A stretch of DNA of 38,467 bases, taken from NCBI GenBank assembly GCA_020851235.1, contig JADZDD010000026.1:1-38467 (forward strand). The letters run 5' to 3'. Positions 1,718 to 21,553 of the stretch are shown here, piece by piece. How positions within the stretch are numbered: position 1 is the stretch's first letter; each line of letters begins with the position of its first letter. This DNA comes from Burkholderiales bacterium (GTDB lineage Bacteria > Pseudomonadota > Gammaproteobacteria > Burkholderiales > Casimicrobiaceae). A program made the position numbers and the translations under genes. The notes beneath the pieces were generated by a model. The model searched no databases. It was given only the letters and a program-made list of their open reading frames with translations, and was not told the DNA's origin.

Positions 1718-1841
1718 GATGATCCTCCCTTCATGTGTCCCGCCAAGGGATGGCCACCACCTGCGTGGCCCAGGGGCTACGCCAAGCCTTGCAAGGATCG
1801 CGCCCGTGGTCAAGAAGCGAAGCATCCGGTCGCATGGCGAC

Positions 1842-1861
1842 GGCGCGCATCCTCGCGCGCC
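1842..1861 (-). terminator. Weak hairpin between sulfotransferase and secreted-protein genes
   Basis: GGCGCGC (1842-1848) and GCGCGCC (1855-1861) form a 7-bp stem with a 6-nt loop, about 30 bp past the sulfotransferase stop. There is no T-tract, so it could be a weak or Rho-assisted terminator, or chance in GC-rich DNA. The rest of the 172-bp gap shows only the ribosome site of the downstream gene. Confidence 0.25.
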
Positions 1862-1889
1862 CGTTTCCAGGCGGCAGCGCCAGCGTAGG

Positions 1890-3122
1890 CTACAAGAGCG
1901 CGTATTCGTCGGCGAACCGGCTGCGAATGGCGGTCGCGGCAAGACCGAAATCGTCGAGCGTGTACGCGTGTCGGCTTCGCTTGCGCCTCGCATCCTCGGC
2001 GAGGAAGCGGGCGACCGCGGCGTCGACGCCATCGCGTGGCAACGCGAAGTGCTCGAGGATCGCGTGCACCGTCGCCGCCGGCCGCTCGACGAGTTCGTTG
2101 TAGCGCACATCGATGAACGGGGGCGTCTCCTTGGGCCAGTGGTCACGTGCCGCGCCCCCGGCGTCGAACATCCGGGGCAGGTTGCGCATGATCTCGCGCC
2201 CGATCGCGCGACCGTCCTGCGCGGGCGTGATGAGACGGCGCAAGGCGATCGTCAGCGCGCACATCGACGGCAGCACCTCGAGCGGATCGCGATGCATGAA
2301 CACCACTCGCGCATCCGGATACACGGCGAGGAGCTCGGTCAGCGAGGCCATGTGCACGGGGGCCTTCAGCGACCAGGTCGCCGAAGGTGCACCGAAGGAC
2401 AGCACCTGCAGGTGGCGCCGGTGCCACGGGTACGCGTGCGCGAAACGGCTGGCGTACAGGTAGTCGTGATAGTCGACGCTGGGAAAGAACGTCGTGAAGA
2501 GCAGCGCCCGGAATGACGACATCAGGAGCGGATTGCACTCCTCGGGCAGGAGCGCTCCCACGGGATGCGCGAGCGGCAGGCCGGGTGACAGTCGGTTGGC
2601 AAAGCCGGTCGCCGCCTTCGCGTAGCGAACCTGCGCGCGCACCTGTCGCTTGCGCGCGATGGCCGGGGGCACCGGAGTGAGATCCGTCTCCCAGCGCAGC
2701 GGCGTGCGTAACCCGCCTTGCGCGCCGAGCAATCCCTGCAGCAACGTCGTGCCCGTGCGTGGCAGGCCCAGGATGAAGATCGGTGCCGCGATCCGGATAT
2801 CGGCAATCTCGGGATGCAGCGTCAGCGCCTGCGTGATGTGGAGCCGGTTCTTGAGGCTGGCCACCACCATCTGGAAGAAGAGCTGGCGCCCCGCCTCGTC
2901 GGCACCCGACGTCTCGCGAAACTCGCGCAGGAGGAGATCGAGGGCGTCGGTGAACTCGGTACCGCCGAGGTCGTCGAGCTTCGCCTCCTTGCGCGCGGTG
3001 GCCGTGAGCTGCGCTGCATCGAGCTCGGCGCCGCGCCAGCCCAGGCGTGTCGCGAAACGCAGGCTGCGATTCCAGGGCCGGCGCCACCAGACGGGCCGGT
3101 CGAACGCGGCCAACGAACTCAC
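1890..3122 (-). CDS. Sulfotransferase family protein (PAPS-dependent)
   Basis: A 410-aa protein. Residues 115-126 (IFILGLPRTGTT) are the 5'-phosphosulfate-binding loop of PAPS-dependent sulfotransferases, and residues 273-286 (VVFMHRDPLEVLPS) match the 3'-phosphate-binding strand and helix. This is the Sulfotransfer_3 style seen in bacterial enzymes of about 400 aa that sulfate lipids or small metabolites; the acceptor cannot be read from sequence. The start is a GTG at 3122 whose GTGA overlaps the TGA of the upstream glycosyltransferase, implying translational coupling. The open frame extends further upstream, but that part lies inside the glycosyltransferase. There is no signal peptide, as expected for a cytoplasmic PAPS user. 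Being last in the tightly linked series suggests it finishes the product after glycosylation (inference). Confidence 0.88.
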   Translation of the reverse strand: MSSLAAFDRPVWWRRPWNRSLRFATRLGWRGAELDAAQLTATARKEAKLDDLGGTEFTDALDLLLREFRETSGADEAGRQLFFQMVVASLKNRLHITQALTLHPEIADIRIAAPIFILGLPRTGTTLLQGLLGAQGGLRTPLRWETDLTPVPPAIARKRQVRAQVRYAKAATGFANRLSPGLPLAHPVGALLPEECNPLLMSSFRALLFTTFFPSVDYHDYLYASRFAHAYPWHRRHLQVLSFGAPSATWSLKAPVHMASLTELLAVYPDARVVFMHRDPLEVLPSMCALTIALRRLITPAQDGRAIGREIMRNLPRMFDAGGAARDHWPKETPPFIDVRYNELVERPAATVHAILEHFALPRDGVDAAVARFLAEDARRKRSRHAYTLDDFGLAATAIRSRFADEYALL

Positions 3123-4273
3123 CGTCGTGCCACCTCGGCAATGGCTCGTGCTGCCACCGGCGCGCCACCGGCCTCGCGAAAAGACGCCGCCACCCGCTGG
3201 GCCGCGGCGCGAAAACCAGCGCCGTCGAGCACGGTGAAGATGGCGTCGCGCAACGCCGGCGCACTGACGCGATTGGAGCGCACGCGGACACCCGCACCCG
3301 CGCCGACCACGAGTTCGGCGTAGATCGCCTGTTCGTGCGCCATGGGCGCCACCACCGCCGGCACGCCAAAGGACAGCGCCTCGTTCACGACGACACCCGC
3401 ATGGCACAGGATCGCATCGGCACGCGGCAACAGCTCGATGAGCGGTAGCCAGGCGCGCACGACGAAGTTCTCGGGCGGATCAGGCAGCAGATCGGGTTGC
3501 GTTCCGACCACCACCGTCACGTTCGTCCCCTGCAACGCCTCCAGGAGGCGTGCGTACAACGAGCGGGCCCGTTCGGCAAAGAGCGTCCCGAACGACACGA
3601 GGAGAGTCTTGCCTGCGGTGAGCCTTTCCCACGGGAACGGGACCGTTTCGGGGCGATGCGAAAGCGTCGGGCCCACGAAGCGGTAGCTCGCGGGGTAGGC
3701 GACGGCCTCCCCCGCGAGGTAGCGCGACGTGTAGATGAGCACGAGGTCCGCCGACAGGTCCGGTCGTGCGATCGGCACAAGGCCTGCACCGCGTTCGAGT
3801 TCGGCGTACAGGCCGGCGATCCAGGCGGCCACCGCCGGATACTGCGCGACGCGATCGCGCAGCAGCGCGGCCGACGGCGCCGACGTCACCCAGCGCGTCC
3901 TGCGCTTGCGGGCGACGAGCGCGCCCGCGATCGCCTGATGATCGGCCACCACGACATCGGGACGGAAATCCGCCACGGCCGCGTCGACGACGGGCATCAT
4001 GTCACGCGCGATCGGCACGAGGATTCGCTCGAAGAGCGCCTGCATCCCCGCAAGCCACGGCGCCGCGGCGGCGCGGCGCAGGTCGGCCTCGGCGGCGACG
4101 AGCGCGGAGTGCGGCACGGTAAAGACGCGGGCGTCGGGTGCGAGCAGCGGGCGCAGCTCGGCGTAAGTCACCCAGGCGCACTCGTGTCCCGCCATGGCGA
4201 GCTCCGCACCGATCGATACGGTCGGATTGACATGAGCCGCGAACGGCGGGACCACGAACAGGATGCGGCTCAT
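3119..4273 (-). CDS. GT1-family glycosyltransferase (MGT/UGT type)
   Basis: A 384-aa GT-B fold enzyme. The N-terminal domain opens with MSRILFVVPPFAAHVNP, in which His14 sits where GT1 enzymes keep the catalytic base (HxNP). The C-terminal domain has TLLVSFGT (223-230), AWLP (274-277) and the nucleotide-sugar motif around CHAGVVVNEALSFGVP (290-305) followed by HEQ. This is the macrolide glycosyltransferase / zeaxanthin glucosyltransferase / sterol glucosyltransferase group, which transfers sugar from UDP- or TDP-sugars onto lipophilic hydroxyl acceptors. It starts 61 bp after the second hydrolase and overlaps the sulfotransferase by 4 bp. It probably glycosylates the product of the two megasynthases (inference). 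The sugar donor is not predictable from sequence. Confidence 0.88.
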   Translation of the reverse strand: MSRILFVVPPFAAHVNPTVSIGAELAMAGHECAWVTYAELRPLLAPDARVFTVPHSALVAAEADLRRAAAAPWLAGMQALFERILVPIARDMMPVVDAAVADFRPDVVVADHQAIAGALVARKRRTRWVTSAPSAALLRDRVAQYPAVAAWIAGLYAELERGAGLVPIARPDLSADLVLIYTSRYLAGEAVAYPASYRFVGPTLSHRPETVPFPWERLTAGKTLLVSFGTLFAERARSLYARLLEALQGTNVTVVVGTQPDLLPDPPENFVVRAWLPLIELLPRADAILCHAGVVVNEALSFGVPAVVAPMAHEQAIYAELVVGAGAGVRVRSNRVSAPALRDAIFTVLDGAGFRAAAQRVAASFREAGGAPVAARAIAEVARR

Positions 4274-4334
4274 TGGATCGCGTGATCGGCCGATGCGTGC
4301 TGCGGTGAGGATCCCGCGCCGGGAATCCCTCGCT

Positions 4335-5201
4335 TCAAGACGTGAACTCCCGGATCGCGCCCACCACGTGCTCGCGCACGAAGGCCGTCGCGTGGAAGAG
4401 GATCCCGTGCGCGCAGTCGGGCACGATGACGAGCCGACACGACGGCATCACACGCGCGAGCCGCTCGCCTTCGGGGCGCAGGTCGGAGATGGCGCCGTAG
4501 AGCGCGAGCGTCGGGCAGGTGATGCGCGCGAGCGTGGCGTCGTCGATCGGCGCGGTGCCTGCGATGTCGCGCACGAAGGTCGTCTCGTCGCGAAGTCGCG
4601 TCGCCGTTTCCACCATCGGGCTGCGGCGGCGTCGCGTCAGGCGTCCCGCGAACTTCGCGGTGGCGCGACCATCGGCATCGAGGTCGTCGAGGTCGATGGC
4701 ATCGAGGTCGACGTGGCCGCGCGCGGCGTGCCGGGCGAGCCAGTCGCCGAAGAGTTCCTTGATCTTCTGGTCGCGTGCCTCGCCCTCGAGCGTCATGCTG
4801 GCAGCGATCCGCTCGCCGATCTCCGCGACGCCCGACTGCGCGTCGAGCAACACGAGCCCTTGCACGCGGTCCGGGTGATCGGCAGCAAAGCGCAGCGCGA
4901 CGTACCCGCCGAAGCTGTGGCCGACGACGATGACACGGTCCTCGCCGATCGCATCGACGATCGCCGCGAGATCGGCGGCCATGTCGGCGCCCGAGTAACC
5001 ACTGCGCGGTTGCTCGCTGCGACCATGGCCGCGCAGATCGTAGAGCACCACGCGGGCGTGCTTCGCCGCCTCGGGGGCGAGCGTCATGAAGAAGCTCGAG
5101 TGGTTGTCGAGAGGCAGGCCGTGGACGAACACGACGACGGCGTCGCCCGCGCCCATGCGCACGACGTTGAAGCGAGTGCCGCGGGCGAGGACGTCAGCCA
5201 T
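4335..5201 (-). CDS. Alpha/beta hydrolase (operon copy 2)
   Basis: A 288-aa alpha/beta hydrolase fold protein. The oxyanion HG motif is at FVHGLP (25-30) and DLRGHGRSE follows at 55-63. The nucleophile elbow is GHSFGG with Ser96. The likely acid is Asp240 in YGAISD and the His is His265 in CAHG, so the triad looks complete. The ATG at 5201 lies inside the end of the upstream hydrolase (ATGGCTGA, 8-bp overlap). It shares DLRGHGRSE, the serine elbow and overall layout with that neighbour, so the pair looks like an old tandem duplication. In a megasynthase operon with no thioesterase domain, release of the acyl chain from the ACP, or transesterification, is a reasonable role, but this is inference. 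Confidence 0.85.
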   Translation of the reverse strand: MADVLARGTRFNVVRMGAGDAVVVFVHGLPLDNHSSFFMTLAPEAAKHARVVLYDLRGHGRSEQPRSGYSGADMAADLAAIVDAIGEDRVIVVGHSFGGYVALRFAADHPDRVQGLVLLDAQSGVAEIGERIAASMTLEGEARDQKIKELFGDWLARHAARGHVDLDAIDLDDLDADGRATAKFAGRLTRRRRSPMVETATRLRDETTFVRDIAGTAPIDDATLARITCPTLALYGAISDLRPEGERLARVMPSCRLVIVPDCAHGILFHATAFVREHVVGAIREFTS

Positions 5202-6003
5202 CGCGCAGGAAGTCGCCGACGGCGGCGCCGAACGCGAGGGGCACCTCGTTCAGCATGAGATGCCCGCAGTCGAACATCCGCATCGTGACCTCGGGCAACA
5301 GGCCCGCGAGGCGCTGGCGCGTGGCCTCCATCGCGGGCAGCGTGCGCGTGCCGTAGCAAAGGAGCACCGGGCACGCGCACCGCGCGATCTCGGCATCGGC
5401 GATGTCCTGGTCGTGCGCAAGGTCGGTGAGCAGCGTCGTGTCCTTCATGAGCGCCGAGGTTCGCGAGCGAACACGGCGCGTACGGCGTCCCGTGCCGCGC
5501 AGGACCTCCTGCGTGGCGGCCGGCAGGTGCGCCACCGCGTGCGCCTGCACGGCGAGGATGCTCTCCGCAACCTCGTCGGCATCGATGCCGTCCCGTGTGG
5601 CGGGATCATCCTCGTCCTCGATGAAGACCGGCAGCGGCCCTTCCGCAAAGACGAGCTTGCGCACGCGCTGCGGATGATCGAGCACGAAGCGCAGTCCCAC
5701 GACGGCACCGAAGCTGTGGCCGACGATGGCAAGCGGGCCGGTCGATGCGTGACGATCGGCGATGGCCGCGAGGTCGCCGGCCATCGAGCGGATGCCGTAG
5801 CCCGACGGGGTCGCCTCGCTGCGACCGTGGCCGCGCAGGTCGTACATGATGACGCGGTATTCGGTGGCGAGCGTCGGGGCGATCGTGAAATAGAAGCTCG
5901 CGAGCGATGTCGTCATGCCGTGCACGAGGATGACCGTCCCGCGCCGCGGCTGGCCGAGCGCCTGGACGTGCAGGCGGACGCCGGCTATCGACTCGACTGG
6001 CAT
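5194..6003 (-). CDS. Alpha/beta hydrolase (operon copy 1)
   Basis: A 269-aa alpha/beta hydrolase fold protein: LVHGMT (26-31), DLRGHGRSE (55-63), nucleophile elbow GHSFGA with Ser97, and CGHLML with His248. The strand that normally ends in the catalytic Asp reads LLCYGTRTLP, with Thr221 where the Asp is expected. Either the acid comes from elsewhere (for example Glu121 in FAEGP) or the enzyme works differently from its neighbour. The gene starts 19 bp inside the 3' end of the ACP gene and ends inside the start of the next hydrolase. The tight coupling to the ACP makes it a candidate releasing or editing enzyme for ACP-bound chains (inference). Confidence 0.83.
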   Translation of the reverse strand: MPVESIAGVRLHVQALGQPRRGTVILVHGMTTSLASFYFTIAPTLATEYRVIMYDLRGHGRSEATPSGYGIRSMAGDLAAIADRHASTGPLAIVGHSFGAVVGLRFVLDHPQRVRKLVFAEGPLPVFIEDEDDPATRDGIDADEVAESILAVQAHAVAHLPAATQEVLRGTGRRTRRVRSRTSALMKDTTLLTDLAHDQDIADAEIARCACPVLLCYGTRTLPAMEATRQRLAGLLPEVTMRMFDCGHLMLNEVPLAFGAAVGDFLRDG

Positions 6004-6281
6004 GCGGCAATGTAATCGACGAGCTGCCCGACGGTGAGCGCAATGATCTCCTCGAGCTCCATCCCCGAGAGCCAGCTCGGAAAATCGACCGCCTCACCAT
6101 AACGCGCCTGGATCTTCTCGGACAGTGCAACGAGCTCGATGCTCTCGACCTCGAGATCGGCAACGAAGCTCGTCTCCATCGTGATGGGCGTCTCCTGCAC
6201 CCAATCCTCGCCGATCACTTCCTCGATCATCGCGGCGATGTCGGCAAGTATGGCGGCCTTGTTCTCTTCGAGGATGCTCAT
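5985..6281 (-). CDS. Stand-alone acyl carrier protein
   Basis: A 98-aa acidic protein with a carrier-protein signature: ADLEVESIELVAL at residues 41-53, in which Ser47 is the predicted phosphopantetheine site. The C-terminal helix (ELEEIIALTVGQLVDYI) is typical of type II ACPs. Its ATG at 6281 overlaps the TGA of the preceding megasynthase (ATGA). A longer open frame exists upstream, but that stretch codes for the synthase. It adds a second carrier site to the one inside the larger megasynthase. Possible jobs are holding the starter, accepting the finished chain for the hydrolases, or presenting the chain for tailoring. The phosphopantetheinyl transferase fused to the protein encoded just upstream would activate it. 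Confidence 0.92.
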   Translation of the reverse strand: MSILEENKAAILADIAAMIEEVIGEDWVQETPITMETSFVADLEVESIELVALSEKIQARYGEAVDFPSWLSGMELEEIIALTVGQLVDYIAACQSSR

Positions 6282-9200
6282 GGGGGTGTCCAGGCGATGA
6301 TGTAGTCGAGATGGCGGCGCGTGGCGATCCAGCGGCTGTCGACGCGCACGCGCTCGCCGTCGAGCGCGTCGACCACGAGCCGCTTCGGTGCATTCGCAAG
6401 GCCGGTGCCTGCCGCCTTGCCTGCCGCCTCCTTGGCGGCCCACAGGCGGGTGAGCGCGACGTCGCGCTCAAGGCCACCGACGAGCGCGAGTTCGGCGGGT
6501 GAGAATGCGATGCCGGCAAAGCCGTCGCCGCGCGGCTCGATGCGCTCGATGTCGATGCCGGGCGTGACGCCTTCGGCGGCGACCGCGACGGCGAGCGCAT
6601 CCTTGTGCGCGATCGAGACGCGCACATCCGCCCCCGACGGCACGCCGACGAGCGGCTCGCCGTTGGGTCCGTTGTCGATGGCCACCTCGATCGGAAACAG
6701 CTTGACCCCGCCGCGTTCACGCACGAGACGGCGCACCGCGTCCTTGGCAGCGATGCGGCCCAGAAGCCACGATCGGTCGCGCTGCAGCTTCCTGATGCCG
6801 CCCGCCGCCTCGAGCTCGCGCGTGGAGTTGAAGCGGCGCGCGAGGAAGTCGATCGTGACACTGCGCCAGCCCGGATCGGCCAGCATCGCCACACCGTGCT
6901 CATCGAAGGTCGCGAGCAGGTACTCGCTCGGCTGCCGGATGATCTCGTAGATCCCGCCGGCGGTCTCGAAGCGCCAGTCTTCCCAGCCGGTGATGCGGCA
7001 GTAGACGTGGTCGCCCTGCACGAGTTCGAGATCGGCACGCACTTCGCGCCGTCCGAAGCGACGCGAGCGCACCGTGCACTCGAGCGCGGTGCCCGGCTCG
7101 GGCTCCGGTCCGAAGAACTCGACGCGGTCGATGCGCACTGGCATCGCGAGCCGATCCTCCTCGGCGCTGGCGACCACCCACAGTCCGTAGACCTGACCCG
7201 CAGCGTCGAGCAGCGCCCCCTTGCCGGGCAGCGCGGTCAACGTCCCGCGCAGGCCGCCAGGGCCGAAGTCGTGCAGCGAGACGATGCCCTGGTACTGCGG
7301 GCCGTGGAAGAGCCAGCCGTCGCGATAGATGCGGTCCATCGGCACCGGGAACGGCTGCGCATCGGTGTAGGGCTCTTGCGACGGCGCCGGCGCCGGCGGA
7401 TGGCGTTCGGCCATCGTCACCGTGCCTTCGACGTACCCTTCGACCTTGACACGGATGCGCGTGGCGTCGAGGCGCGTCGCGACGACATCGACGAGGACCG
7501 CGGGCTCGACGTACAGCCACGAGCTCGCGAGCACGTCCTCGACGACGATCGCGGTACGCGTCGGATCGAGGCGCTCCGCCGCGTCCATGAGCAGCGCGAT
7601 CGACATCGTCATCGGAACCGTCGGCGCGCGATCGACCGGCTCGCGCCACGTCGGTGGCTGCGGGACCAGCGAGTGGTCGATGAGCTCGGGATACGTGGCA
7701 AGCGAAAGCTCGATGCGATCGGTGCGCGTGGACGGTGCGATGGCGGTCGGGGCAGGAAGTGGGCGCGACGCCGGCGGTGCGGGTCGGCGCCGCGCGAAGG
7801 CGTCGACGATCTCCGTCTGCGCCGCAACGAGCTCGCGCATGCTCGTGTCGAAGGCGGCGAGCACGCGGTGGCCGACGCCTGCGGGCGGCGTCGGCAGCGC
7901 CCTCGCGCCGCGGTCGAGCGGTGCCGCCCCGATCCGGACGAGCGGCGCGCCGAGGTCGAGGTCCACGGTCCCACGCGCCCCCGATCGCACCGACTTCGTG
8001 GCGAGGCCCACACGCTCGAGATCGACCGGCGCACCCTCGACATACAGCGCCGCGCAGGCGCGGCGCAACTGCTCCATTCCGGGGTGCTGCGCCGTGACGA
8101 GCGAGATCGCGTGATGCGGCTCGCCCGCCAGCACGTCGTCGACGAATGCCGCCAGGCTGCCGGTGCCCACCTGCACGAAAACGCGCGCACCCGCGGCGTA
8201 CAGCGCGAGGATCGTCTCGCGAAAGCGCACCGGCTGCACGAGGTGATCGAGGAAGAGCTTCGTCACCGCGCGCGGATCGGCGGGATAAGGCGCGCACGTC
8301 GTTGCCGACCACAGCGGGCGCTCCGGCGCGCGCAGCGCGACGGTGGCAAGCGCGCCGCCGTAGAAGTCGAGATGTCCGGCGAGTGCGGGCGAGTGGAACC
8401 CCGAGCGAAACGGCAGCACCTCGAAGAGAATGCGCGCCTCGCGCAGGCGTTCGCGCACACGCTCGGCCGCGGCCGGCGGCCCGCACACGATCGACTGGTG
8501 CACGCAGTTGTCGTGCGTGACCACCATGCCGGGCACGCCGGCGATGAGTTCGCCCACCCGCGCGGCACCGGCGCCAACGGCCAGATACTCGAGGTCCGCC
8601 ACGCGCAGCATGCCGGGTCGCAGGCTCGCGATGAGCTCGTGCAGCGACTCGCGCTCGAACATCCCGGCCGCGAGCATGCCCGACCATTCGCCGATGCTGT
8701 GCCCTGCAATCATGTCTGGGTGCACACCGAGTGCCGCCAGCACGTCGGTCAGGAAGGCATTGAGCGTAAAGACCTGGAAGCCTTGCTGCTCGAGGTTCGG
8801 CGATTCGACGTCGGGCTCGGGCAGGCCGAAGTGGCGCGCGATGGCGGCGACCTTCGGGGCAAATATCGCTTCCACGCCCGGATACAGGAACGCGACCTTG
8901 CCGCCGGCCGTGATGAGTCCCTCCGGCGCGAAGTACAGCCCGTCGCGGCCGCGCCGGGCACGACCGCTGCTGACCGCGTGCACCGCGGCTTCGATGCGTC
9001 GCGTCGTCGGCGCGATGAGCGCGAGGCGGGCGGGACCCTCGCCCCCACTCACCCCGCCGGCCACGGCCGTGGCAAGCGCCGCAGTCGTGGGCGCGGCGAC
9101 GATCAGCGCGGGGTCGACGTCGCGGTCGGCCGGCGTCCGTGCACGCTGGCGGCGCACCGCCTGCGGCGCGTCGATGATGACGTGCGCGTTGATGCCGCCG

Positions 9201-10528
9201 AAGCCAAACGCGTTCACTGCCGCGCGGCGCAGCGGCGCGTCCCAGGGTTGCGCGGTAGCAAGCGTGCGAAAGCGCGTGCGCGCAAGCAGCGGATGCGGAT
9301 CGTCGCAGTGCAGCGTCGGCGGCTGCACGCCGTGGTACACCGCGAGCGCGGCCTTCGCGAGGCCAGCCGCACCCGCCGCCGGCATCGCATGGCCGATCAT
9401 CGACTTCACCGATCCGACGGGCACCGGCTCACCGTTGGCGGCACCGAAGATGCGCGCAAGCGTCGTGAGTTCGGCCGTGTCTCCGGCGGTCGTGGCCGTG
9501 CCGTGCGCCTCGACCAGTCCCACCGTCGCCGGATCGAGCCCGGCGTCGCGCCACGCCCGGGTGAGCGCGAGGACCTGGCCCTCGACCCCCGGCGCCATGA
9601 GGCCGGTATCACGGCCGTCGCTCGACGTGCCCGTCCCGCGGATGACAGCGTAGATGCGATCGTCGTCGCGACGCGCATCGGCCGCGCGCTTCAGGACGAA
9701 CATGCCGATGCCTTCACCAATCAGGAGCCCGTCGGCGGCACGATCGAAGGGCCGGATCTGCTGTCGCCGCGACAATGCACCGAGCTGCGAGAAGACGCTC
9801 CAGAAGGCGATGTCGTGACAAAGGTGTACACCGCCGGCGAGGACGAGGTCGGCCTTGCCCTCGCGCAACTCACGGACCGCGAGGTCGACGGCGAGCAGCG
9901 TGCTCGCGCACGCCGCATCGATGGTGTACGCCGAGCCGGCGAGGTCGAGACGGTTGGCGACGCGCGAGGCGAGGAGGTTCGGCACGACACCGATCGCCGC
10001 ATCGGCGTTGTACGTGCCGCAACGCGCCTGGAAGTCCCGCTTGATCGCCTCGATCCGCTCCGCATCGAGGTCCGGGAGCAGGGCGTGCAGCGATTCGACG
10101 AGTTGCTGCGAGCCGCGCGTGACATCGAGCATGCGCACCATGCGCGGACCGAAATAGTGGCCGCGGCCGACGATGACCGACGTTTTCTCGCGCGCGAATG
10201 CGCGCTGCGCATAGCCCGCGTCGGCGAGCGCATCGGAGGCCACCTGCAAGGCGAGCAACTGCTCCGGCTCGGTGGCCTTGGCCGCCGCGGGCATGATGCC
10301 GAACTTGCCGGCGTCGAACGTGGCGAAATCGTCGATGAACCCGCCGCGCCGCGCGTACACGCGGTCGGGCGCCGTGGACGACGGATCGAAATAAACCGGG
10401 TCCCAGCGTTGCGACGGGACGTCGGTGATGGCGTCGACCCCGGACTCGATGTTGCGCCAGAACGCGGCGAGGTCCGGCGCCCGCGGGAAGACACAAGCCA
10501 TCCCGATGATGGCGACGTCGCGTTCCAT
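6278..10528 (-). CDS. Type I megasynthase: KS-AT-DH-PPTase
   Basis: A 1416-aa multidomain synthase. The ketosynthase (about 1-455) has Cys207 in DAACAST, His342 in EAHGTA and His380 in IGHAMPAAG. The acyltransferase (about 540-840) has Ser611 in GHSIGEW and His712 in FHSP. The double-hotdog dehydratase-like region (about 935-1195) has a possible His952 in LIDHSL and Asp1108 in LLDAAGQ; the first motif departs from the usual HxxxGxxxxP, so activity is uncertain. The C-terminal Sfp-type phosphopantetheinyl transferase (about 1240-1416) shows SIAHKD, GIDIE (Asp1326, Glu1328) and LWAAKEAAGKA. No carrier domain was found, so it must work on the neighbour's ACP or the free ACP. The ATG at 10528 follows GGAAG and lies 41 bp after the upstream synthase. 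It resembles PfaC/PfaB or enediyne synthase parts rearranged. Confidence 0.92.
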   Translation of the reverse strand: MERDVAIIGMACVFPRAPDLAAFWRNIESGVDAITDVPSQRWDPVYFDPSSTAPDRVYARRGGFIDDFATFDAGKFGIMPAAAKATEPEQLLALQVASDALADAGYAQRAFAREKTSVIVGRGHYFGPRMVRMLDVTRGSQQLVESLHALLPDLDAERIEAIKRDFQARCGTYNADAAIGVVPNLLASRVANRLDLAGSAYTIDAACASTLLAVDLAVRELREGKADLVLAGGVHLCHDIAFWSVFSQLGALSRRQQIRPFDRAADGLLIGEGIGMFVLKRAADARRDDDRIYAVIRGTGTSSDGRDTGLMAPGVEGQVLALTRAWRDAGLDPATVGLVEAHGTATTAGDTAELTTLARIFGAANGEPVPVGSVKSMIGHAMPAAGAAGLAKAALAVYHGVQPPTLHCDDPHPLLARTRFRTLATAQPWDAPLRRAAVNAFGFGGINAHVIIDAPQAVRRQRARTPADRDVDPALIVAAPTTAALATAVAGGVSGGEGPARLALIAPTTRRIEAAVHAVSSGRARRGRDGLYFAPEGLITAGGKVAFLYPGVEAIFAPKVAAIARHFGLPEPDVESPNLEQQGFQVFTLNAFLTDVLAALGVHPDMIAGHSIGEWSGMLAAGMFERESLHELIASLRPGMLRVADLEYLAVGAGAARVGELIAGVPGMVVTHDNCVHQSIVCGPPAAAERVRERLREARILFEVLPFRSGFHSPALAGHLDFYGGALATVALRAPERPLWSATTCAPYPADPRAVTKLFLDHLVQPVRFRETILALYAAGARVFVQVGTGSLAAFVDDVLAGEPHHAISLVTAQHPGMEQLRRACAALYVEGAPVDLERVGLATKSVRSGARGTVDLDLGAPLVRIGAAPLDRGARALPTPPAGVGHRVLAAFDTSMRELVAAQTEIVDAFARRRPAPPASRPLPAPTAIAPSTRTDRIELSLATYPELIDHSLVPQPPTWREPVDRAPTVPMTMSIALLMDAAERLDPTRTAIVVEDVLASSWLYVEPAVLVDVVATRLDATRIRVKVEGYVEGTVTMAERHPPAPAPSQEPYTDAQPFPVPMDRIYRDGWLFHGPQYQGIVSLHDFGPGGLRGTLTALPGKGALLDAAGQVYGLWVVASAEEDRLAMPVRIDRVEFFGPEPEPGTALECTVRSRRFGRREVRADLELVQGDHVYCRITGWEDWRFETAGGIYEIIRQPSEYLLATFDEHGVAMLADPGWRSVTIDFLARRFNSTRELEAAGGIRKLQRDRSWLLGRIAAKDAVRRLVRERGGVKLFPIEVAIDNGPNGEPLVGVPSGADVRVSIAHKDALAVAVAAEGVTPGIDIERIEPRGDGFAGIAFSPAELALVGGLERDVALTRLWAAKEAAGKAAGTGLANAPKRLVVDALDGERVRVDSRWIATRRHLDYIIAWTPP

Positions 10529-10569
10529 CACGCGTCGACTTCCATGCGAATGCCCGCGGAACGCGGCGA

Positions 10570-13500
10570 TCAGGCCATCGCCCCGGGATCGCCACGCATG
10601 AGGATCACCTGCGCGCGGGCGGCCGAGCCATGCAAGAGTTCGTCCATGAAGCTCGCCACGCCGGCGGCGGGGTCGATGAGCCCGATGCCGCGACGCGCGT
10701 ACTCGCGCTCGAGCTCGGGCGACATCATCCCGGTGGCGCCCCACGGCCCCCAATTGATCGAGAGCACGCGCCCGGCAAGGGCGGCGTTGAGCTTGGCGGC
10801 GAGCCGGTCGAGGTAGTCGTTGGCGGCGGCGTAGTCGACCTGACCGCGGCTGCCGAACGTCGACGCGATGCTCGAGAAGAACACGATGAAGCCGATGTCC
10901 GGGCGCACCTTGCGCGCGATCGCCAACGCGCCATGGACCTTCGTCTCGAACACGCGCGCGAACGAATCGGGCGTCTTGTCGCGCGCGAGCTTGTCCTCGA
11001 TGACGCCCGCGCCGTGGATCACGCCATCGAGCCGGCCATGGCGTGCATAGACGTCGTCGATGAGCCGCTCGAACGCCTCGGTGTCGCGAACGTCGAGCGG
11101 GTGATACGTGACCTTCGATCCGGCCGCAGCGAGTGCGGCCATGTTCGTGCGCACCTCGCGCTCGGCGAGAATGCGCGCGCACGCCGCCTCGATCTCGGCC
11201 GGCGTCTTCAATGTGCCGCGGGCGATCAGCACCTGTCGCACTGCGCGCGCATCGCGCGCACCGGCCAAGTCATCGGCCTCGAGCGGCCCGGGCAGCGCGG
11301 TGCGACCCACGAGCTCCAACCGGCACCCGAAGCGCTCGGCGAGCGCCAGCGCTGCCGCTGCGGTGATACCGCGCGCCCCTCCGGTGATGAGGACGACGGA
11401 CTCGGGGCCGAGCACGACGGGCGCCTTGCTGCGCACGCCATGCGCATCGTCGCGATGTGCGGCGTGCACGGCGTCGCCGTCGGCGCCGTTGCCACCCTCG
11501 AGGCTCGCGCGCACGATCCGCGGACGCACCCGTTCGCCTTCTTCCGAGTAACCGACCTCGCCGGCATCATCGACGACGTTGAGTTCACCCACGAGGCGCG
11601 TCGCGAGTTCCGCATCGTCGAGTCGCGTCGCGAAATTGGCGACCCGAATCTGCCGATCGGGCCACTCCTTGCGCAGGCTCTTGATCATGCCGGAGACGCC
11701 GCCTGCGGAAGGATGCGCGCCGATGCCATCGCTCGCCGGATCGTCGGACATGTAGCCGTTGGCGGTCCCGGCCACGATGACGTGGCTCGCCCCGTGCATC
11801 AGCGCAGCACGAATGCGCCGGAACAGAACCGGCACGTCGTCCGCCTTCCAGTCCGAACGCAGCGGCGTGAGATCGACGAGGGCGTCGGTCGTGATCGCCG
11901 TGGTGGCACGATCGGCCATCACGGCACGGGCGGTCCCTGCCGCCGAGAGCTTCTGCGCCAACAGCGCGTCGAGTTGCGGGAGCCCGCCGACGATCGAGAT
12001 CGCACGGTCGGTGAGGCGCCATTCGTGCGTTGCGTCGGTGGCCGGCGTGAGTTCGACGACGTAGCGGTCGACCTGTGGCGCGGTCACCGGTTCGGTCGTT
12101 GCCGCGCCCTCCACGGTGACCGAGGCTGCCGCCGTAGCCTGCACCTGCGCGCTCGCCGCGACGCTCGCACGACCGCCGACGAGGGGCGCCAGGCTCTCGA
12201 CGATGCCGCGCAACGTCTTCACCGCCACGAGATCCTCGGGCAACTCGGGTGGCGTGTCGCCGGCGTGTCCGCGCAGGCGTTCCGCGACGGCGCCCAGGAT
12301 CTCGACGCGCTTGATCGAATCGATCGACAGGTCCGCCTCGAGATCGAGGTCGAGATCGAGCATCTCCAATGGATAGCCGGTACGCTCGCTCACGATCGCA
12401 AGCAGCGTCGCCTCGACGTCGAGCGTCTCCCCGGCGGGCGACACCGGCGCGATCTCGGTGGTGACATCGACGGCGATCGTGGCCACCACCGTTGCGGGTG
12501 CCGTGTCGGGGGCGGACAAGCGCGCGCTGTCGTGCAACGCGGCGCCGGCTCCGGGATCGCTGCCCAGGTACGAGAGCATCACGCGACGCTGGGCATCGAC
12601 GAGCTCGCGCACGTTGCGCAGGTAGTCGAGCACCGCGACATCGCGCTCGCCCTGCGGTGGGGCGACCTCGTACGACGCGCGCATCGGGATCGGATCGACG
12701 ATCGGTCGCAACGCGTGCCCTGGCACCTCTCCCTGCATCGGCCACGCGCGCTGTCCGTTGACCCACCAGGTGCTGGCCGAACGGCGCGGCGCCGGGGGTG
12801 CGTCGAGCGACAGCGACGCAACGTCGCGGGGCGCGAACAGTGCGTTGCCGTCGACGGGAACGCCGTGCACGGCGAGCTGGCCCAGTGCCAGCAGGAACTG
12901 CACGACCCCATCCTCGCCAGGACGGTCGCAGGCGATCGCCACATGCGGTCGCTTGCCCAGGATGCGTCCGACCAGGCCCGTGAGCACCCGCCCCGGGCCC
13001 GCCTCCACGAAGATGCGCGTGCCGGCGGCGTACATCGCCTCGATCTGCGCGGCGAAGCGCACCGGCTCCCCGATGTGCTGCGCCAAGAGTTCACGGATCG
13101 CTGCGGGATCGGCAGGATACGTGCCGGCGGTGGTATTCGCGTACACGGGAAGCGCCGGTGCGGCCACGTCGACCGCGGCGAGGTCATGGGCGAACGCGGC
13201 ACAGGCAGCACGGACGAGCGGGCTGTGGAACGCGCACGCCACGGGGATCGCCTTGGCGGCGATGCTCGCCGCGAGGAGCTTTTCCACGGCCGCTTCCACG
13301 GCACGCTTCGGCCCCGAGATGACCGACTGCTCGGGCGAATTCTCGTTGGCGATCACGACGCCATCGATGTCGGCAGTCGCGGCGGCAATCGTGGCGCGAT
13401 CGGCGGCAACCGCCGCCATCGTCCCGGCGTCGTCGGCGTCGGCGCACGCCTCGAGGATGCGGCGCCCGCGAAGCTCCGACAAAGCCGGCAGCGCCGCTTC

Positions 13501-16500
13501 GGGCAGCGCGCCCGCGACGGTGAGCGCGACGAGTTCGCCGTAACTGTGACCGGCCACCATGTCGGGACGCACGCCGCAGCGCTGCAACAGGCTCGCCATC
13601 GCGAGTCCGGCGATGCCGAGCGCAGGCTGTGCAGCGCGCGTATCGGTGAGGGCCGCCTGCTGCCCGGCCTGTGCCTCGCTCGTCCACGCGGTCGGCGGAA
13701 AGATGAGCTCCTTCCAGTGCGCACCCGACTCCAGATGGCGTTGCAAATCGGGGAACGCGACGAAGAGCTCTCCCAGCATCCCGACCCGCTGCGATCCTTG
13801 TCCGGGGAAAACGAAGGCGAGTTTCGCGTTCGCGTCGGGCTCGGGCGGTGCAAGGAAGACGCCCGAATTCTGTGCCTTGCCCTCGCGCGCCGCGGCGACG
13901 CGCTCGGCGAGGTCGGTCGCATCGCGCGCCACGAGCGCGATCTGCACGCGGTCGCTGCCCTCTGCCGCCGCGCGCGCGAGTTCGGCGAGCGACCACTCGC
14001 CGGTCGCTGCCGCACGCGCGACACGCTCGGCGCGATCGAGCGCTGCGGCGCGATCCGCGCCACGAATGAGGAAGAGCTCGGCCGGCCAGCGCGCCAGGCC
14101 AAAGCGCGCCGGTTCGGCGTCGTGCGACGCGAGAACGACGTGGAAATTGGTTCCGCCGAAGCCGAACGCGCTCACCCCCGCGTAGCGCTCGCGCACCGGC
14201 CACGGCTTGGCCACCGGCGACATCACGAACGGCGACGCCGGCGTCCAGCCGGGATTGGGTTGCGTGATGTTGAGCGTCGGCGGCAATACCTGCCGCTGCA
14301 GGGCGAGCGCCGCCTTCACGAGTCCCGCCACGCCCGCGGCACATTTCGTATGGCCGATCTGCGACTTGACGGAGCCGAGCGCGATCGACGCTGCCGCGAC
14401 GCCGGCCTCACCGAAGAAGCGATTGAGCGTTTCGAGCTCGGTGCGATCACCCACGACCGTACCCGTTCCGTGCGCCTCGACGAGACCGACGGCGCGCGGT
14501 GACACGCCGGCGCGTCGATACGCGCGCTCGAGCGTACGCTGCTGGCCCTGTGCCCGTGGCGCGGTCAATCCCAGGCTCTTGCCGTCGCTCGCGCCACCCA
14601 CGCCCTTGATCACGGCGTAGATGCGATCGCCATCGCGCTCGGCGTCCGCCAGGCGCTTGAGGACGATCGCCGCGACACCCTCGCCCAAGGCGATGCCGTC
14701 GGCGGCGGCGTCGAACGTGCGGCACTGTCCGGTCGGCGACAGCGCATGCACGCTCGAGAATGCGAGATAGTCGACGATGCTGTTGTGCATGTCGGCGCCA
14801 CCGCACACGACCATGTCGCTGCTGCCCGAGACGAGCTCCTTGCAGGCGACGTCCACCGCGGCGAGCGACGACGCGCACGCGGCATCCACGGTGTAATTGC
14901 TGCCACCCAGATCGAGGCGATTGGCCACCCGGCCTGCGATCACGTTGGCGAGGATGCCGGGGAAGGAGTCCTCGGTCATCGACGGAAGTGCACCGGCGAG
15001 CTCCGGCGGCAGCTCGCCGACGTACTGCCGCCACAGCGCGCGAAAGCCGTATGCGCTCGCAAGATCGGTCCCCGCCTCGGCACCAAAGATCACGGCCGCG
15101 GTGTCGCGATCGAACTCGCGACCCTCCGCGCCGTAGCCGGCGTCGTCCAGCGCGCGCCGCGACGCTTCGAGGGCGAGGAGCTGCACCGGCTCGATGGCGG
15201 CGAGCGAGCGCGGCGGAATGCCGTACGGCAGAGGATCGAAAGGATACGGATCGAGGAAGCCGCCCCACTTCGAAGGCGTCATCTCCCCGTTGGTCGAAGC
15301 CGGATCGAAGAACGCTTCGGCCCGCCAGCGCTCGGTCGGCACTTCACGGATGCTGTTGACGCCGTGCACGATATTCGACCAGAACGTCTCGAGATCCGGC
15401 GCACCCGGCATGATCGCCGCCATGCCGACGATCGCGACGTCGCGTGTGATCTCGCTCGGCGCCGGCGCCTGCCGCGTCGACAACGCGTCAAGATGCGCCT
15501 GCGCGCCGTCGGCAACGTCGGCGTGGAGCTGTGCCACCGGAAGCACGGCATCGCGCAGTGCCGCGATCTGGCCCAGCATCACCATGCCCTCGCGCCGCTG
15601 CACGTCGGCGTCGACGGTCACGAGCTTGTCACCCTCGCGCACGAGACCCTTGGCTGCGATGCGCAAGCGGCCGAGATTCAATTCCTCGAGTTGCTGCCAC
15701 ATCGCCTGCGGGGCGACACCTTCGGCTTGAAGCCGGGCGTGCTCGCGCTGGAAATATCGCACGAACTCGGTGTCGGCGCAGCGCGTGGCGTGGCCCGGTG
15801 CCGTCTCGAGCAGCACGGTCGACGTGCAGGCGAGTGCCGCCTCCTGGAAAGCCGGCTGGATGGCGCCGCAGGCGACGGCCTCGACCGAGAAGAGGTACGC
15901 CGTTCCCATGAGGACGCCAACGGCAGCCCCACGGGCCACGAGCGGGGCCGCCATGGCGGCCACCATCGCCGCCGAGCGTGCATCGTGGATGCCACCGGCA
16001 AACACCACCTCGAGGTCGTCGCACGTCGGCTGCGCGAGCAGACGCTCGATCTGCAGCTCCCACAACGCGAGGCTCGTGCGCGGGCCGACGTGACCTCCGC
16101 ACTCGGAACCTTCGAAGACGAACCGCCGTGCGCCCTGCTTGAGGAAAAGATCGAGCAGCCCCGGCGAAGGCGTGTGCAGGAACGTGCGCGTGCCCGCGTC
16201 CTCGAGCGGCTTGGCCTGCGCGGGACGCCCCCCGGCGATGAGCGCGACCGGCGGCTTCCACTTCAGCACCGCCGCGAGCTGCTCGTCGCGCAGCGCCTGC
16301 GGCACGAAGCCCAGGATGCCGACACCCCACGTCTTGCCCGCGAGGCGCCGGGTGGTCTCGGCGAGGAGCGCGTCGACTTCGGCGCCGCGCATCAGCGCGA
16401 GTGAGAGAAAGGGAAGCGCGCCGGCGCCAGCGATCGCGTCGGCAAAGGCCGGCTGATCGGAGACTCGCGTCATCGGTCCTTGCAGGATCGGGTAGCGCAG

Positions 16501-17379
16501 GCCGTAACGTGCCGCGAGTGGGGCGTCGGCCGCCAGCGCGCGTTGCTCGCACGCTGCGACGAGGCCGCGGTCGATGGCAGCGACAAGGCCGCGCACGACC
16601 CCGCCGGTGCTGCGGAAACGGGCCGCGAGCGAGCGAGCGAATGCGGCGTCCTGGCCTGCGGGCAGGAGCTCGCGGCGAAGATCGCGCGCGCCGAGGTTCG
16701 CGGCAACGCCACGGGCGACGATCTCGCGCACGGGCAGGTCGGGGCGCGTGTACACGCGATGCTCGTCGACGAGCAACGTCTCGCTCCCGTCCATCGCGGC
16801 GATGGCCGCCTTCGCGTCCGACGAGAGGCTCGATTCGCGCACGAGCGCGAGTTGCGCGTCGACGACCACGCCCGCGGCCCCGCCGGCGATGCACGCCGCT
16901 GCCGTGTGCACGCCGATGCCACCTTGCGCGTAGATCGGGACCGTCACCTGTGCGGCGAGTGCCTGCACGAGCACGAACGTCGTGTCGCCGCCGACACGGC
17001 CACCGCTCTCGGTCCCCTTGGCAATGAGTGCGCATGCCCCGGCGGCCACCGCAGCATGCGCTTGCGCGACGCTCGTGACCTCGACCATCACGGCACGGGG
17101 AGCCCATGCCGCGACGGGCACGCCGGCTTCGACGATCACGGTATCGACGTTCGACGGCAACGGCGTTGCGCCGATCGCTGCATGCGCCGAGATGCGAACG
17201 CCGATCCCCGCGACGCCGCTCGCCTCGATCTCGCGCAGCGCCTCACGATTGTCGCGTGCATCACGCCCGAGCCCGACGATACCGAGCGCACCCGCGCGTG
17301 CCGCGGCGATGGCCATGCCGGCATTCGGTTGCTCGAACGGCGTGACGACGACGACTCGAAAAGACTTGCGCTGCTGCAT
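10570..17379 (-). CDS. Type I megasynthase: NMO-NMO-KS-AT-ACP-KR
   Basis: A 2269-aa protein from the ATG at 17379, which follows AGGGG; a GTG at 17433 would add 18 residues. Two FMN-type nitronate-monooxygenase-like barrels come first (about 5-235 and 285-545). The second has LQGPMTRVSD and SECGGHVG, the enoyl-reductase-like PfaD style; the first has SGGRVG, with Arg in place of His. The ketosynthase (about 645-1085) has Cys835 in DAACASS, His970 in EAHGTG and His1010 in GHTKCAAG. The acyltransferase (about 1185-1510) has Ser1279 in GHSYGE and His1385 in FHSP. One ACP has Ser1688 in DLSIDSIKRVEIL, a PUFA-synthase-like sequence. The ketoreductase (about 1990-2210) has TGGARGI and YAAAND. It heads the operon and with the next gene supplies a full reductive cycle. 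It has one ACP where PUFA synthases have several. Confidence 0.93.
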   Translation of the reverse strand: MQQRKSFRVVVVTPFEQPNAGMAIAAARAGALGIVGLGRDARDNREALREIEASGVAGIGVRISAHAAIGATPLPSNVDTVIVEAGVPVAAWAPRAVMVEVTSVAQAHAAVAAGACALIAKGTESGGRVGGDTTFVLVQALAAQVTVPIYAQGGIGVHTAAACIAGGAAGVVVDAQLALVRESSLSSDAKAAIAAMDGSETLLVDEHRVYTRPDLPVREIVARGVAANLGARDLRRELLPAGQDAAFARSLAARFRSTGGVVRGLVAAIDRGLVAACEQRALAADAPLAARYGLRYPILQGPMTRVSDQPAFADAIAGAGALPFLSLALMRGAEVDALLAETTRRLAGKTWGVGILGFVPQALRDEQLAAVLKWKPPVALIAGGRPAQAKPLEDAGTRTFLHTPSPGLLDLFLKQGARRFVFEGSECGGHVGPRTSLALWELQIERLLAQPTCDDLEVVFAGGIHDARSAAMVAAMAAPLVARGAAVGVLMGTAYLFSVEAVACGAIQPAFQEAALACTSTVLLETAPGHATRCADTEFVRYFQREHARLQAEGVAPQAMWQQLEELNLGRLRIAAKGLVREGDKLVTVDADVQRREGMVMLGQIAALRDAVLPVAQLHADVADGAQAHLDALSTRQAPAPSEITRDVAIVGMAAIMPGAPDLETFWSNIVHGVNSIREVPTERWRAEAFFDPASTNGEMTPSKWGGFLDPYPFDPLPYGIPPRSLAAIEPVQLLALEASRRALDDAGYGAEGREFDRDTAAVIFGAEAGTDLASAYGFRALWRQYVGELPPELAGALPSMTEDSFPGILANVIAGRVANRLDLGGSNYTVDAACASSLAAVDVACKELVSGSSDMVVCGGADMHNSIVDYLAFSSVHALSPTGQCRTFDAAADGIALGEGVAAIVLKRLADAERDGDRIYAVIKGVGGASDGKSLGLTAPRAQGQQRTLERAYRRAGVSPRAVGLVEAHGTGTVVGDRTELETLNRFFGEAGVAAASIALGSVKSQIGHTKCAAGVAGLVKAALALQRQVLPPTLNITQPNPGWTPASPFVMSPVAKPWPVRERYAGVSAFGFGGTNFHVVLASHDAEPARFGLARWPAELFLIRGADRAAALDRAERVARAAATGEWSLAELARAAAEGSDRVQIALVARDATDLAERVAAAREGKAQNSGVFLAPPEPDANAKLAFVFPGQGSQRVGMLGELFVAFPDLQRHLESGAHWKELIFPPTAWTSEAQAGQQAALTDTRAAQPALGIAGLAMASLLQRCGVRPDMVAGHSYGELVALTVAGALPEAALPALSELRGRRILEACADADDAGTMAAVAADRATIAAATADIDGVVIANENSPEQSVISGPKRAVEAAVEKLLAASIAAKAIPVACAFHSPLVRAACAAFAHDLAAVDVAAPALPVYANTTAGTYPADPAAIRELLAQHIGEPVRFAAQIEAMYAAGTRIFVEAGPGRVLTGLVGRILGKRPHVAIACDRPGEDGVVQFLLALGQLAVHGVPVDGNALFAPRDVASLSLDAPPAPRRSASTWWVNGQRAWPMQGEVPGHALRPIVDPIPMRASYEVAPPQGERDVAVLDYLRNVRELVDAQRRVMLSYLGSDPGAGAALHDSARLSAPDTAPATVVATIAVDVTTEIAPVSPAGETLDVEATLLAIVSERTGYPLEMLDLDLDLEADLSIDSIKRVEILGAVAERLRGHAGDTPPELPEDLVAVKTLRGIVESLAPLVGGRASVAASAQVQATAAASVTVEGAATTEPVTAPQVDRYVVELTPATDATHEWRLTDRAISIVGGLPQLDALLAQKLSAAGTARAVMADRATTAITTDALVDLTPLRSDWKADDVPVLFRRIRAALMHGASHVIVAGTANGYMSDDPASDGIGAHPSAGGVSGMIKSLRKEWPDRQIRVANFATRLDDAELATRLVGELNVVDDAGEVGYSEEGERVRPRIVRASLEGGNGADGDAVHAAHRDDAHGVRSKAPVVLGPESVVLITGGARGITAAAALALAERFGCRLELVGRTALPGPLEADDLAGARDARAVRQVLIARGTLKTPAEIEAACARILAEREVRTNMAALAAAGSKVTYHPLDVRDTEAFERLIDDVYARHGRLDGVIHGAGVIEDKLARDKTPDSFARVFETKVHGALAIARKVRPDIGFIVFFSSIASTFGSRGQVDYAAANDYLDRLAAKLNAALAGRVLSINWGPWGATGMMSPELEREYARRGIGLIDPAAGVASFMDELLHGSAARAQVILMRGDPGAMA

Positions 17380-17768
17380 GAGACCCCTGCGAACGACGAA
17401 GGATTGCGCCTTGTTGTTAGAGCTCGCGAGCACTCGTGCTGCCTGTCGGCAGGACTACGTTCCCGCGCTTGCAATAGTACCGAAAGTGCTCGCTTCCGTG
17501 GAGTGGAAAACCCGAATTTTGCCCCGTAAAACCAGGGGTTTGCCATTCATCGGCGACGTCCGGTCGAACTACCGCCGACGCCGCGTCCCTGCGCTGTGCG
17601 CGGCCCGCTGCACTGCGCTTCGCAAGCCCCGCGCCAAGATGCACCGGCGCGGTGCAACGCGATGCCACCCACTCGCCGGCGCGGGCAACGTCGCGTTGTC
17701 GAGCGCGATCCGTAGTCTACGGCCGGCATTCCCGGGGTCGCGTCCCAACCACCCCGGCGGGCAGGAGC
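17380..17768 (-). promoter_or_regulatory. Upstream region of the megasynthase operon
   Basis: 389 bp without a credible gene, between greA and the first megasynthase, both on the minus strand. Three small inverted repeats lie 40-75 bp before the start codon: GCTCGCGAGC (17422-17431, perfect palindrome), AGCAC/GTGCT (about 17429-17440) and CTGCC/GGCAG (17439-17452). Further up, AAAACC occurs twice on the plus strand 21 bp apart (17507 and 17528), within a relatively AT-rich patch at 17505-17545. A -10-like TACTAT lies on the minus strand at 17479-17474 but has no convincing -35. Positive regulation, or a promoter for an alternative sigma factor, is plausible. Nothing else was seen in 17546-17768. 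Confidence 0.35.
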
Positions 17769-18242: not shown

Positions 18243-18272
18243 CTTCGTCCTGGCCTCAATGCAATGAATCGA

Positions 18273-18289
18273 CGCCGCCACCGGCGGCG
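18273..18289 (-). other. Hairpin in the carB-greA spacer
   Basis: CGCCGCC (18273-18279) and GGCGGCG (18283-18289) can form a 7-bp stem with a 3-nt loop between carB and greA. No T-tract follows, so partial termination or RNA processing is possible; it may also be chance in GC-rich sequence. Confidence 0.25.
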
Positions 18290-18331
18290 GACCTTGCCAC
18301 CCCCGGCGGGTACCGAACAGCGGGGCGAGCG

Positions 18332-21553
<3,222 letters not shown>

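Follow-up and report, generated by a model that had tools for sequence, protein, structure and literature searches.

In Azotobacter, the C23-C25 acids from which alkylresorcinols are built are made by the synthase ArsA, while a second protein, ArsD, is described as a 4'-phosphopantetheinyl transferase (PPTase) (PMC4824345). The survey by Shulse and Allen (PMC3098273) groups a Beijerinckia indica strain with the Azotobacter vinelandii ars genes as Type P, lists Frankia (conserved), Streptomyces avermitilis, Actinosynnema and Renibacterium under Type M, the product of which was uncharacterised in 2011, and describes the PPTase motif hShxH as common to Types M, N, O, P, R, S and T. The present analysis concerns a synthase operon of a Burkholderiales bacterium (Casimicrobiaceae; assembly GCA_020851235.1), located on contig JADZDD010000026.1. 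The window analysed is this one whole contig of 38,467 bases; the genome comprises 3.9 Mb and is 98.8 % complete. Seven minus-strand genes, running from 17379 to 1890, encode two multidomain synthases (SynA and SynB), a stand-alone acyl carrier protein (ACP), two alpha/beta-hydrolases (AH1 and AH2), a glycosyltransferase (GT) and a sulfotransferase (ST). Pfam and NCBIfam matches and the translations bore out this gene list and its coordinates as given in a first-pass annotation made from the letters alone. The predicted product of the operon, to which a probability of about 0.5 is assigned, is a sulfated, glycosylated very-long-chain lipid.

Among synthases whose pathway has been characterised, the phenolic-lipid (Type P, ars) synthase is closest to that of the window by sequence, and it takes the place of the polyunsaturated fatty acid (PUFA), enediyne and heterocyst-glycolipid synthases named as relatives in the first-pass annotation. 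The proteins compared were those of Beijerinckia. Plasmid pBIND02 of B. indica, presumably the Type P locus of Shulse and Allen, encodes a 2674-aa synthase with two enoyl reductase (ER), one ketosynthase (KS), one acyltransferase (AT), ACP and ketoreductase (KR) domains in the order ER-ER-KS-AT-ACP-KR, a 629-aa protein combining a dehydratase (DH) with a PPTase, a GT4-type glycosyltransferase and exporter genes. SynA aligns with this synthase at 45 % over 1658 aa in the same domain order, and the first ER of B. indica likewise lacks the histidine discussed below (GGQ); the C-terminal part of SynB aligns with the DH-PPTase protein at 29 % over 519 aa. The two loci differ in that B. indica possesses two ACP stretches and, between its synthase genes, two type III polyketide synthase (PKS)-like genes (their annotation is KAS-III-type, and Pfam assigned the one examined to the chalcone-synthase type), whereas its PPTase protein lacks the KS-AT part found in SynB, and the window adds the stand-alone ACP, the two hydrolases, a GT1-type glycosyltransferase and the ST. 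No Pfam match to chalcone-synthase-type (type III) PKS was detected among 22 open reading frames (ORFs) of the window, which covered all seven operon proteins, the ACP being represented there by a longer ORF.

Adjacent genes of the operon overlap or are separated by at most 61 bases. Genomes and loci used for comparison are labelled with G- and L-numbers, respectively. SynA was detected in 3 of 22 genomes of the genus, always at the same site next to greA and carB, and in the two other synthase-bearing members, G003 and G009, all seven genes recur in unchanged order, with protein identities to the window of 41-94 %: 84 and 64 % for SynA, 86 and 60 % for SynB, 94 and 64 % for the ACP, 84 and 41 % for AH1, 88 and 45 % for AH2, 80 and 42 % for the GT, and 84 and 45 % for the ST (G003 and G009, respectively). 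For CarB, encoded next to the operon, the values are 92 and 89 %; the operon thus diverges more quickly than the gene beside it. Its preservation in two further genomes of the genus and the recurrence of a SynA-SynB-ACP-AH-GT core in other phyla argue against a chance arrangement.

SynA (10570..17379, as are all operon coordinates on the minus strand; 2269 aa; Pfam, start codon and an alignment of three orthologs) has the order ER1 (pseudo)-ER2-KS-AT-ACP-KR. The first-pass annotation had correctly noted a reductase, described as a single PfaD-like one; SynA instead contains two FabK/NMO-type barrels, ER1 (approximately 16528..17364; alignments) and ER2 (approximately 15463..16521; Pfam and alignments). 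An AlphaFold model of the two-barrel part (mean pLDDT 91.1, pTM 0.92) was placed closest to TM0800 and to enzymes of the FabK kind by Foldseek, with a best E of 7.6e-21. The GGH motif, whose histidine we take to be the catalytic one in FabK, is kept by ER2 in 29/29 aligned sequences and by ER1 in none of the 29 (GGR in 27, among them the window, GGP in one and GGL in one); a tandem of pseudo-ER and ER is therefore a feature of the family. ER1 is probably catalytically dead and paired with ER2 within one chain, and the two barrels may depend on each other. In thraustochytrid PUFA synthesis, ERb and ERc are described as a TIM-barrel ER heterodimer, one member apparently dependent on the other (PMC13311796); the SynA barrels differ in standing in tandem in one chain, the first without GGH. 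The remaining domains are a KS with its C-H-H site (14011..15444), an AT (12862..13815; GHSYGE, GQGSQ) and a single carrier-protein domain (12274..12408; LSIDSIK), all assigned by Pfam and motif counts, as well as a KR (10738..11397; Pfam and alignment). At locus L046 of Actinomadura sp. KC216, the KS-AT stretch at the expected SynA place (1766-4567) is closer to the SynB query (36 %).

SynB (6278..10528; 1416 aa; Pfam, NCBIfam and alignment) has the order KS-AT-DH-PPTase. An active-site KS and an AT of its own were not part of the first-pass annotation. The KS (9068..10522; Pfam) contains the cysteine and both histidines in 25/25 alignment rows, unlike a Cys-less chain-length factor, and the AT (8156..8884; Pfam and alignment) keeps GHSxGE and shows LYPGVE instead of GQGxQ. 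In the DH region (approximately 6962..7708), Pfam recognised nothing at E <= 0.001; modelled with AlphaFold (mean pLDDT 84.8), the region is a double hotdog matching PKS dehydratases in the PDB (Foldseek, best E 1.7e-13), with His and Asp invariant and Gln nearly so among 19 aligned homologs, which turns the earlier "dehydratase-like" domain into a PKS-type DH. The PPTase (approximately 6281..6868; Pfam PF01648) has intact motifs, NGEP and VSIAH, fitting x(G/D)xP and hShxH. In the SynB of several Actinomadura loci these motifs are degenerate, so the domain may be dead there. The stand-alone ACP (5985..6281; 98 aa; EVESIEL) was assigned from NCBIfam, with every match below cut-off, and alignment. 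As ER, KR and DH are all encoded, a full reducing cycle is possible.

Downstream of the ACP follow AH1 (5194..6003), a candidate thioesterase, AH2 (4335..5201), a candidate thioesterase or transferase (both Pfam and alignment), and the GT (3119..4273), which is of the MGT/GT1 type (Pfam; NCBIfam TIGR01426, below cut-off) and has oleandomycin and YjiC-type glycosyltransferases as PDB relatives. A scan of GTDB genomes with the N-terminal part of SynA as query yielded 30 loci. They come from the two other synthase-bearing members of the genus, from Actinomadura and further actinobacteria, from Frankia and Acidimicrobiaceae, and from metagenome-assembled genomes (MAGs), namely a Myxococcales, a deltaproteobacterial and a proteobacterial one (SZUA-336). 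SynB follows SynA in 25 of them, the divergent L048 included; of the other five, three are cut by a contig end and two, both SZUA-336, lack SynB. A GT profile was searched against the 25 genomes in which the loci outside the genus lie; 22 of these are actinobacterial. Loci L036, L049 and L051 did not enter this set by themselves, the genomes of the latter two already being part of it. An ortholog was present in every one (25/25, best E <= 3e-80 each), and beyond further ortholog copies the next match reached only 2e-31. In 27 of 30 regions fetched around GT matches, a hydrolase gene directly adjoins the GT; none was called in L063, nor in the fetched pieces of L075 and L077. A Streptomyces plasmid record is annotated in the order PKS, KS protein, ACP, alpha/beta-hydrolase, glycosyltransferase, methyltransferase. 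The SynA-SynB-ACP-hydrolase-GT set is thus a mobile core in actinobacteria, Frankia and others, and the GT is a fixed partner of the SynA-SynB pair. Other genes near the GT of relatives include a Methyltransf_23 family (six distinct genes in five genomes), a GHMP-kinase-like family in 11 genomes (the one member tested scored below the Pfam cut-off) and a lipoprotein-like gene in the deltaproteobacterial and myxobacterial MAGs; in L065 (SZUA-336; 15194-19028), the GT is followed by a methyltransferase, a gene resembling short-chain dehydrogenases/reductases (SDR) and a PapA/WS-DGAT-like gene. Export-type genes lie near other synthases of the SynA family.

From its distribution, the core cassette of the window may be Type M. 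Such cassettes occur in actinobacteria. The SynA profile matched in 13/13 genomes of the Frankia gtarii genus (over both ER barrels in seven, over the second only in six). SynB contains both PPTase motifs, which are not specific to Type M and are partly lost in relatives. The window differs in its Burkholderiales host and in the addition of the ST and of a propeller-like gene described below.

The ST (about 1890..3122) is a Sulfotransfer_3 protein (Pfam PF13469, E 1.4e-35; 123.9 bits against a cut-off of 27; alignment) with a PRTGTT loop, presumably the motif binding 3'-phosphoadenosine 5'-phosphosulfate (PAPS). Its start is probably a GTG that overlaps the GT stop. Against the PDB, its profile matched 2zq5 (3e-56) and 2z6v (2e-45) over nearly the whole length; both are sulfotransferases from mycobacteria, and a fatty acid is bound in one of the two structures. 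The ST profile occurred in 3 of 22 genus genomes, the same three that possess SynA (Fisher 6e-4, ignoring shared descent). The genome of the window contains one more PF13469 gene elsewhere.

Beyond the genus, the samples searched contained 14 Pseudomonadota genomes with a SynA-type ER gene, eight of which have an ST no more than 10 kb from their synthase genes. It directly follows SynB in G198, lies 1.4 kb upstream and divergent in G451 and G139, and 1.4 kb past SynB, adjoining a propeller gene, in G359; in G181 it belongs to a same-strand series ahead of SynA, with a GT4-type gene directly before SynA. It adjoins the synthase in G363, is 9.6 kb from the synthase genes in G334, and in G617 is found 7.7 kb downstream with same-strand ORFs between. 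No PF13469 gene was present in the genomes of G163 and G088, and no ST within 10 kb in G510, G784, G570 and G798; the synthase contigs of G570, G088 and G798 are short. Pairwise BLAST comparison separates these linked STs into four or more groups: window/G003/G009, G198 with G617 (46 % over 361 aa), G181/G334 (60 %), and G451/G139 with G359 (37-39 % over 222 aa; G451-G359 39 % over 304). An earlier view of the ST as merely a genus-specific add-on, based on an ST profile (A3) that matched in 15 of 25 non-genus genomes but beside none of the loci, was partly overturned by this Pfam-wide search in Pseudomonadota.

An eighth gene (1..1717, minus strand; ORF, family alignment and co-occurrence), likewise absent from the first-pass annotation, starts 172 bases past the ST stop and runs off the contig. 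With a signal-peptide-like stretch at its start and a beta-propeller appearance, its product looks like a secreted beta-propeller-like protein; it gave no Pfam match and no match among plasmids. The G009 homolog shares 55 % identity, and the G003 contig stops just past the ST, so a propeller there cannot be judged. Among 369 sampled genomes of the class, the family occurs in 5 of 8 SynA-positive and 0 of 361 SynA-negative ones (Fisher 1e-9); as the profile was built from synthase loci and three of the five positive genomes fed it (the window's, G510 and G784), the comparison without these three is 2/5 versus 0/361 (P 1.5e-4). The two independent finds, G570 and G798, have the propeller adjoining ST genes on contigs without SynA. 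Family members are those of the window, L023, L105, L107, L125, L130 and L103. In G139, G451 and G784, SynB is followed by a gene of the phosphodiesterase/sulfatase superfamily (PF01663; called on the G139 gene, to which those of G784 and G451 are 58 and 96 % identical), a hydrolase and then the propeller. As a side observation, PF01663 gene, hydrolase and propeller form another sub-cassette with related synthases (L104 17339-19231, L106 17090-18982, L112 3224-4864 and L123 357-2228), and in G359 the same three genes lie near the synthase in a different arrangement. The combination of GT, ST and propeller did not turn up in the literature searches, the synthase kind itself being already known.

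A sulfated, glycosylated very-long-chain lipid is favoured as product because the reducing domain set is complete with its motifs, because SynA shares 45 % identity with the B. indica synthase and ArsA makes C23-C25 acids, because the GT is constant and ST and SynA share the same genus genomes, and because of the recurrent nearness of ST to synthases in Pseudomonadota, the propeller co-occurrence and the export-type genes. That the chain is long and reduced is highly probable, that it is glycosylated is probable, and that it is sulfated by the ST of the window is somewhat better than an even bet; the combined figure of about 0.5 takes into account that these three depend on one another. In the proposed pathway, the PPTase of SynB would load the carrier domain of SynA and the stand-alone ACP, and SynA and SynB would extend malonyl units iteratively. 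In each cycle, modelled on an ArsA-type synthase with chains of about C22-C26, the KS would condense, and KR (SynA), DH (SynB) and ER2 (SynA) would act in turn on the beta-keto, hydroxyl and enoyl groups, ER1 serving as the dead partner of ER2 in the same chain. The additional KS-AT of SynB probably determines the starter unit or the chain length, or else lets some beta-positions keep a hydroxyl group. The chain could then pass to the stand-alone ACP and be released or transferred by AH1 and AH2, after which the GT may place a hexose on a chain hydroxyl and, in the genus, the ST would add sulfate to give an anionic sulfated glycolipid. The secreted propeller might act outside the cytoplasm on the lipid or its placement.

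Several observations weigh against this reading. Only 2 of the 25 non-genus core genomes, both actinobacterial, have a PF13469 gene within 10 kb of SynA (G064 at ~1.1 kb with a weak score, G072 at ~8.5 kb), so the core product needs no sulfation. The Pseudomonadota linkage, which speaks for the reading, amounts to 5 of 11 genera, counting one genome per genus, where a uniform null would give 0.58 (P 5e-5; P 6e-4 without genus g119), P values that are generous since the 10-kb limit was set after the data were seen and secondary-metabolite genes cluster. Several of the 14 genomes lack a full SynB (G617 has only the DH-PPTase part), and a window-type GT was found in the fetched regions of just one, G163, which has no PF13469 gene, and in none of those of the eight ST-linked genomes. 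What the latter speak for is thus a connection of the synthase type with sulfation rather than with a sulfated glycolipid, and with core genomes mostly lacking an ST near SynA, GT plus ST is essentially a genus-only combination. Presence or absence of PF13469 as such (206 of 369 class genomes; 7 of 8 synthase-positive versus 199 of 361 others, P 0.07) proved uninformative and was dropped as evidence, and the substrate of the ST cannot be read from its sequence. Of the single pathway to a sulfated glycolipid or glycosylated long-chain polyketide suggested by the first-pass annotation, with conserved co-occurrence of both synthases with GT and ST as its check, the GT part thus held throughout the core, the ST part in the genus and rarely beyond. 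Its remark that sulfation would be unusual for such a synthase is tempered by the O-sulfonate polyketides clethramycin and mediomycin (PMC5704753); literature searches, with subscription papers mostly outside their scope, found no link of a sulfotransferase with a SynA-type synthase.

A rather unlikely alternative has the core produce a glycosylated long-chain lipid but regards the ST as a chance neighbour that sulfates an exopolysaccharide or another metabolite, or as a remnant. The 23 of 25 other core genomes without an ST within 10 kb of SynA fit such a role, as do the commonness of PF13469 in the class, the confinement of GT plus ST to the genus bar the two actinobacterial genomes, and the six PF13469 genes on the G363 synthase contig. 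An incidental ST would not, however, be expected in exactly those 3 of 22 genus genomes that carry SynA, nor within the same operon with an inferred start overlapping the GT stop; the window-G009 divergence of the ST (45 %) matches that of GT and hydrolases (41-45 %), STs recur near synthases in other genera, and two ST groups span synthase loci of different families (G198/G617, 46 %; G359/G451, 39 %). A pair of ST and thioesterase is a known precedent for terminal-alkene release (CurM/olefin synthase), and ST, two hydrolases and KR are all encoded here. By that logic the ST would sulfate the beta-hydroxyl of the acyl-ACP, a hydrolase would drive decarboxylative release to a terminal alkene, and the GT sugar would sit elsewhere on the chain. 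This is very improbable, as the ST is a separate protein and its match to the CurM/olefin-synthase ST structures is confined to a stretch of 27-29 residues at the PAPS loop (4gox, E 0.018; 4gbm, E 1.4), as opposed to nearly its whole length for 2zq5 and 2z6v, and most cassette relatives have a hydrolase without a nearby ST.

A polyunsaturated or polyene product of PUFA or enediyne kind, instead of a reduced chain, is improbable as well. The PUFA synthase PfaABCDE shares the KS-AT-ACP-KR core and an FMN TIM-barrel ER, PfaA (TIGR02813) is the best NCBIfam match to SynA, and ER2 might be used only in part; the match scores 932 bits, however, below the cut-off of 1010, and SynA has one PP-binding stretch and no tandem ACP array. 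Its ER is fused N-terminally, resembles FabK more than PfaD in the Foldseek comparison and keeps GGH (in ER2) throughout the alignment, the DH is of the PKS type, and two catalytic KS are present. Pfam finds a single KS in SynB, and this one has its cysteine, where PfaC pairs a KS with a Cys-less chain-length factor. The enediyne PKSE is a single KS-AT-ACP-KR-DH-PPTase polypeptide, from which the window differs by two proteins with fused ER. The heterocyst glycolipid pathway is alike in logic, combining a long-chain iterative synthase with a glycosyltransferase; its product is released by a thioester reductase, none of which is found among the window operon proteins, where hydrolases occur instead and an ST is present. 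Among described products, fattiviracin and cycloviracin, glucosylated trihydroxy long-chain acids of actinomycetes according to passages of PMC4365757, are a lead only, as no synthase sequence for them was found. A paper on Rhodococcus glycolipids tabulates an hglE-KS cluster which, in the part concerned, is not tied to glycolipids (PMC8396431).

The upstream neighbours of the operon are greA, carB, carA, an SDR gene, dapB, a BamE-domain gene, murJ and argG. The SDR gene (22962-23768, minus strand) lies between dapB and carA in an otherwise standard dapB-carA-carB-greA run. A plus-strand ORF at 179-1888 without Pfam match was judged to be antisense noise. Promoter and terminator scans of the window gave signals at chance level only, and ARAGORN detected no tRNA in it.

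Beyond the genus, it is tentatively proposed that Ars-type synthases across Pseudomonadota make an undescribed class of sulfated, exported very-long-chain lipids, which in the genus are also glycosylated, that several ST lineages were recruited independently, and that the secreted propellers, a family hitherto without a name, act together with the lipids so made. For Pseudomonadota at large, this proposal speaks of sulfated lipids and not of glycolipids, because a window-type GT was found in only one of the 14 regions. Relatives of the synthase are widespread, in actinobacteria, Frankia, a myxobacterial MAG and Pseudomonadota. A glycolipid is predicted from the core with its GT, and the head group from the genes particular to each lineage (sulfate in the genus of the window, methyl or acyl groups elsewhere), so that the product can be tested by lipidomics, and the tandem of pseudo-ER and ER poses a clear structural question. 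If the prediction is true, a sulfated very-long-chain glycolipid would be an unusual anionic envelope lipid for a Gram-negative bacterium.

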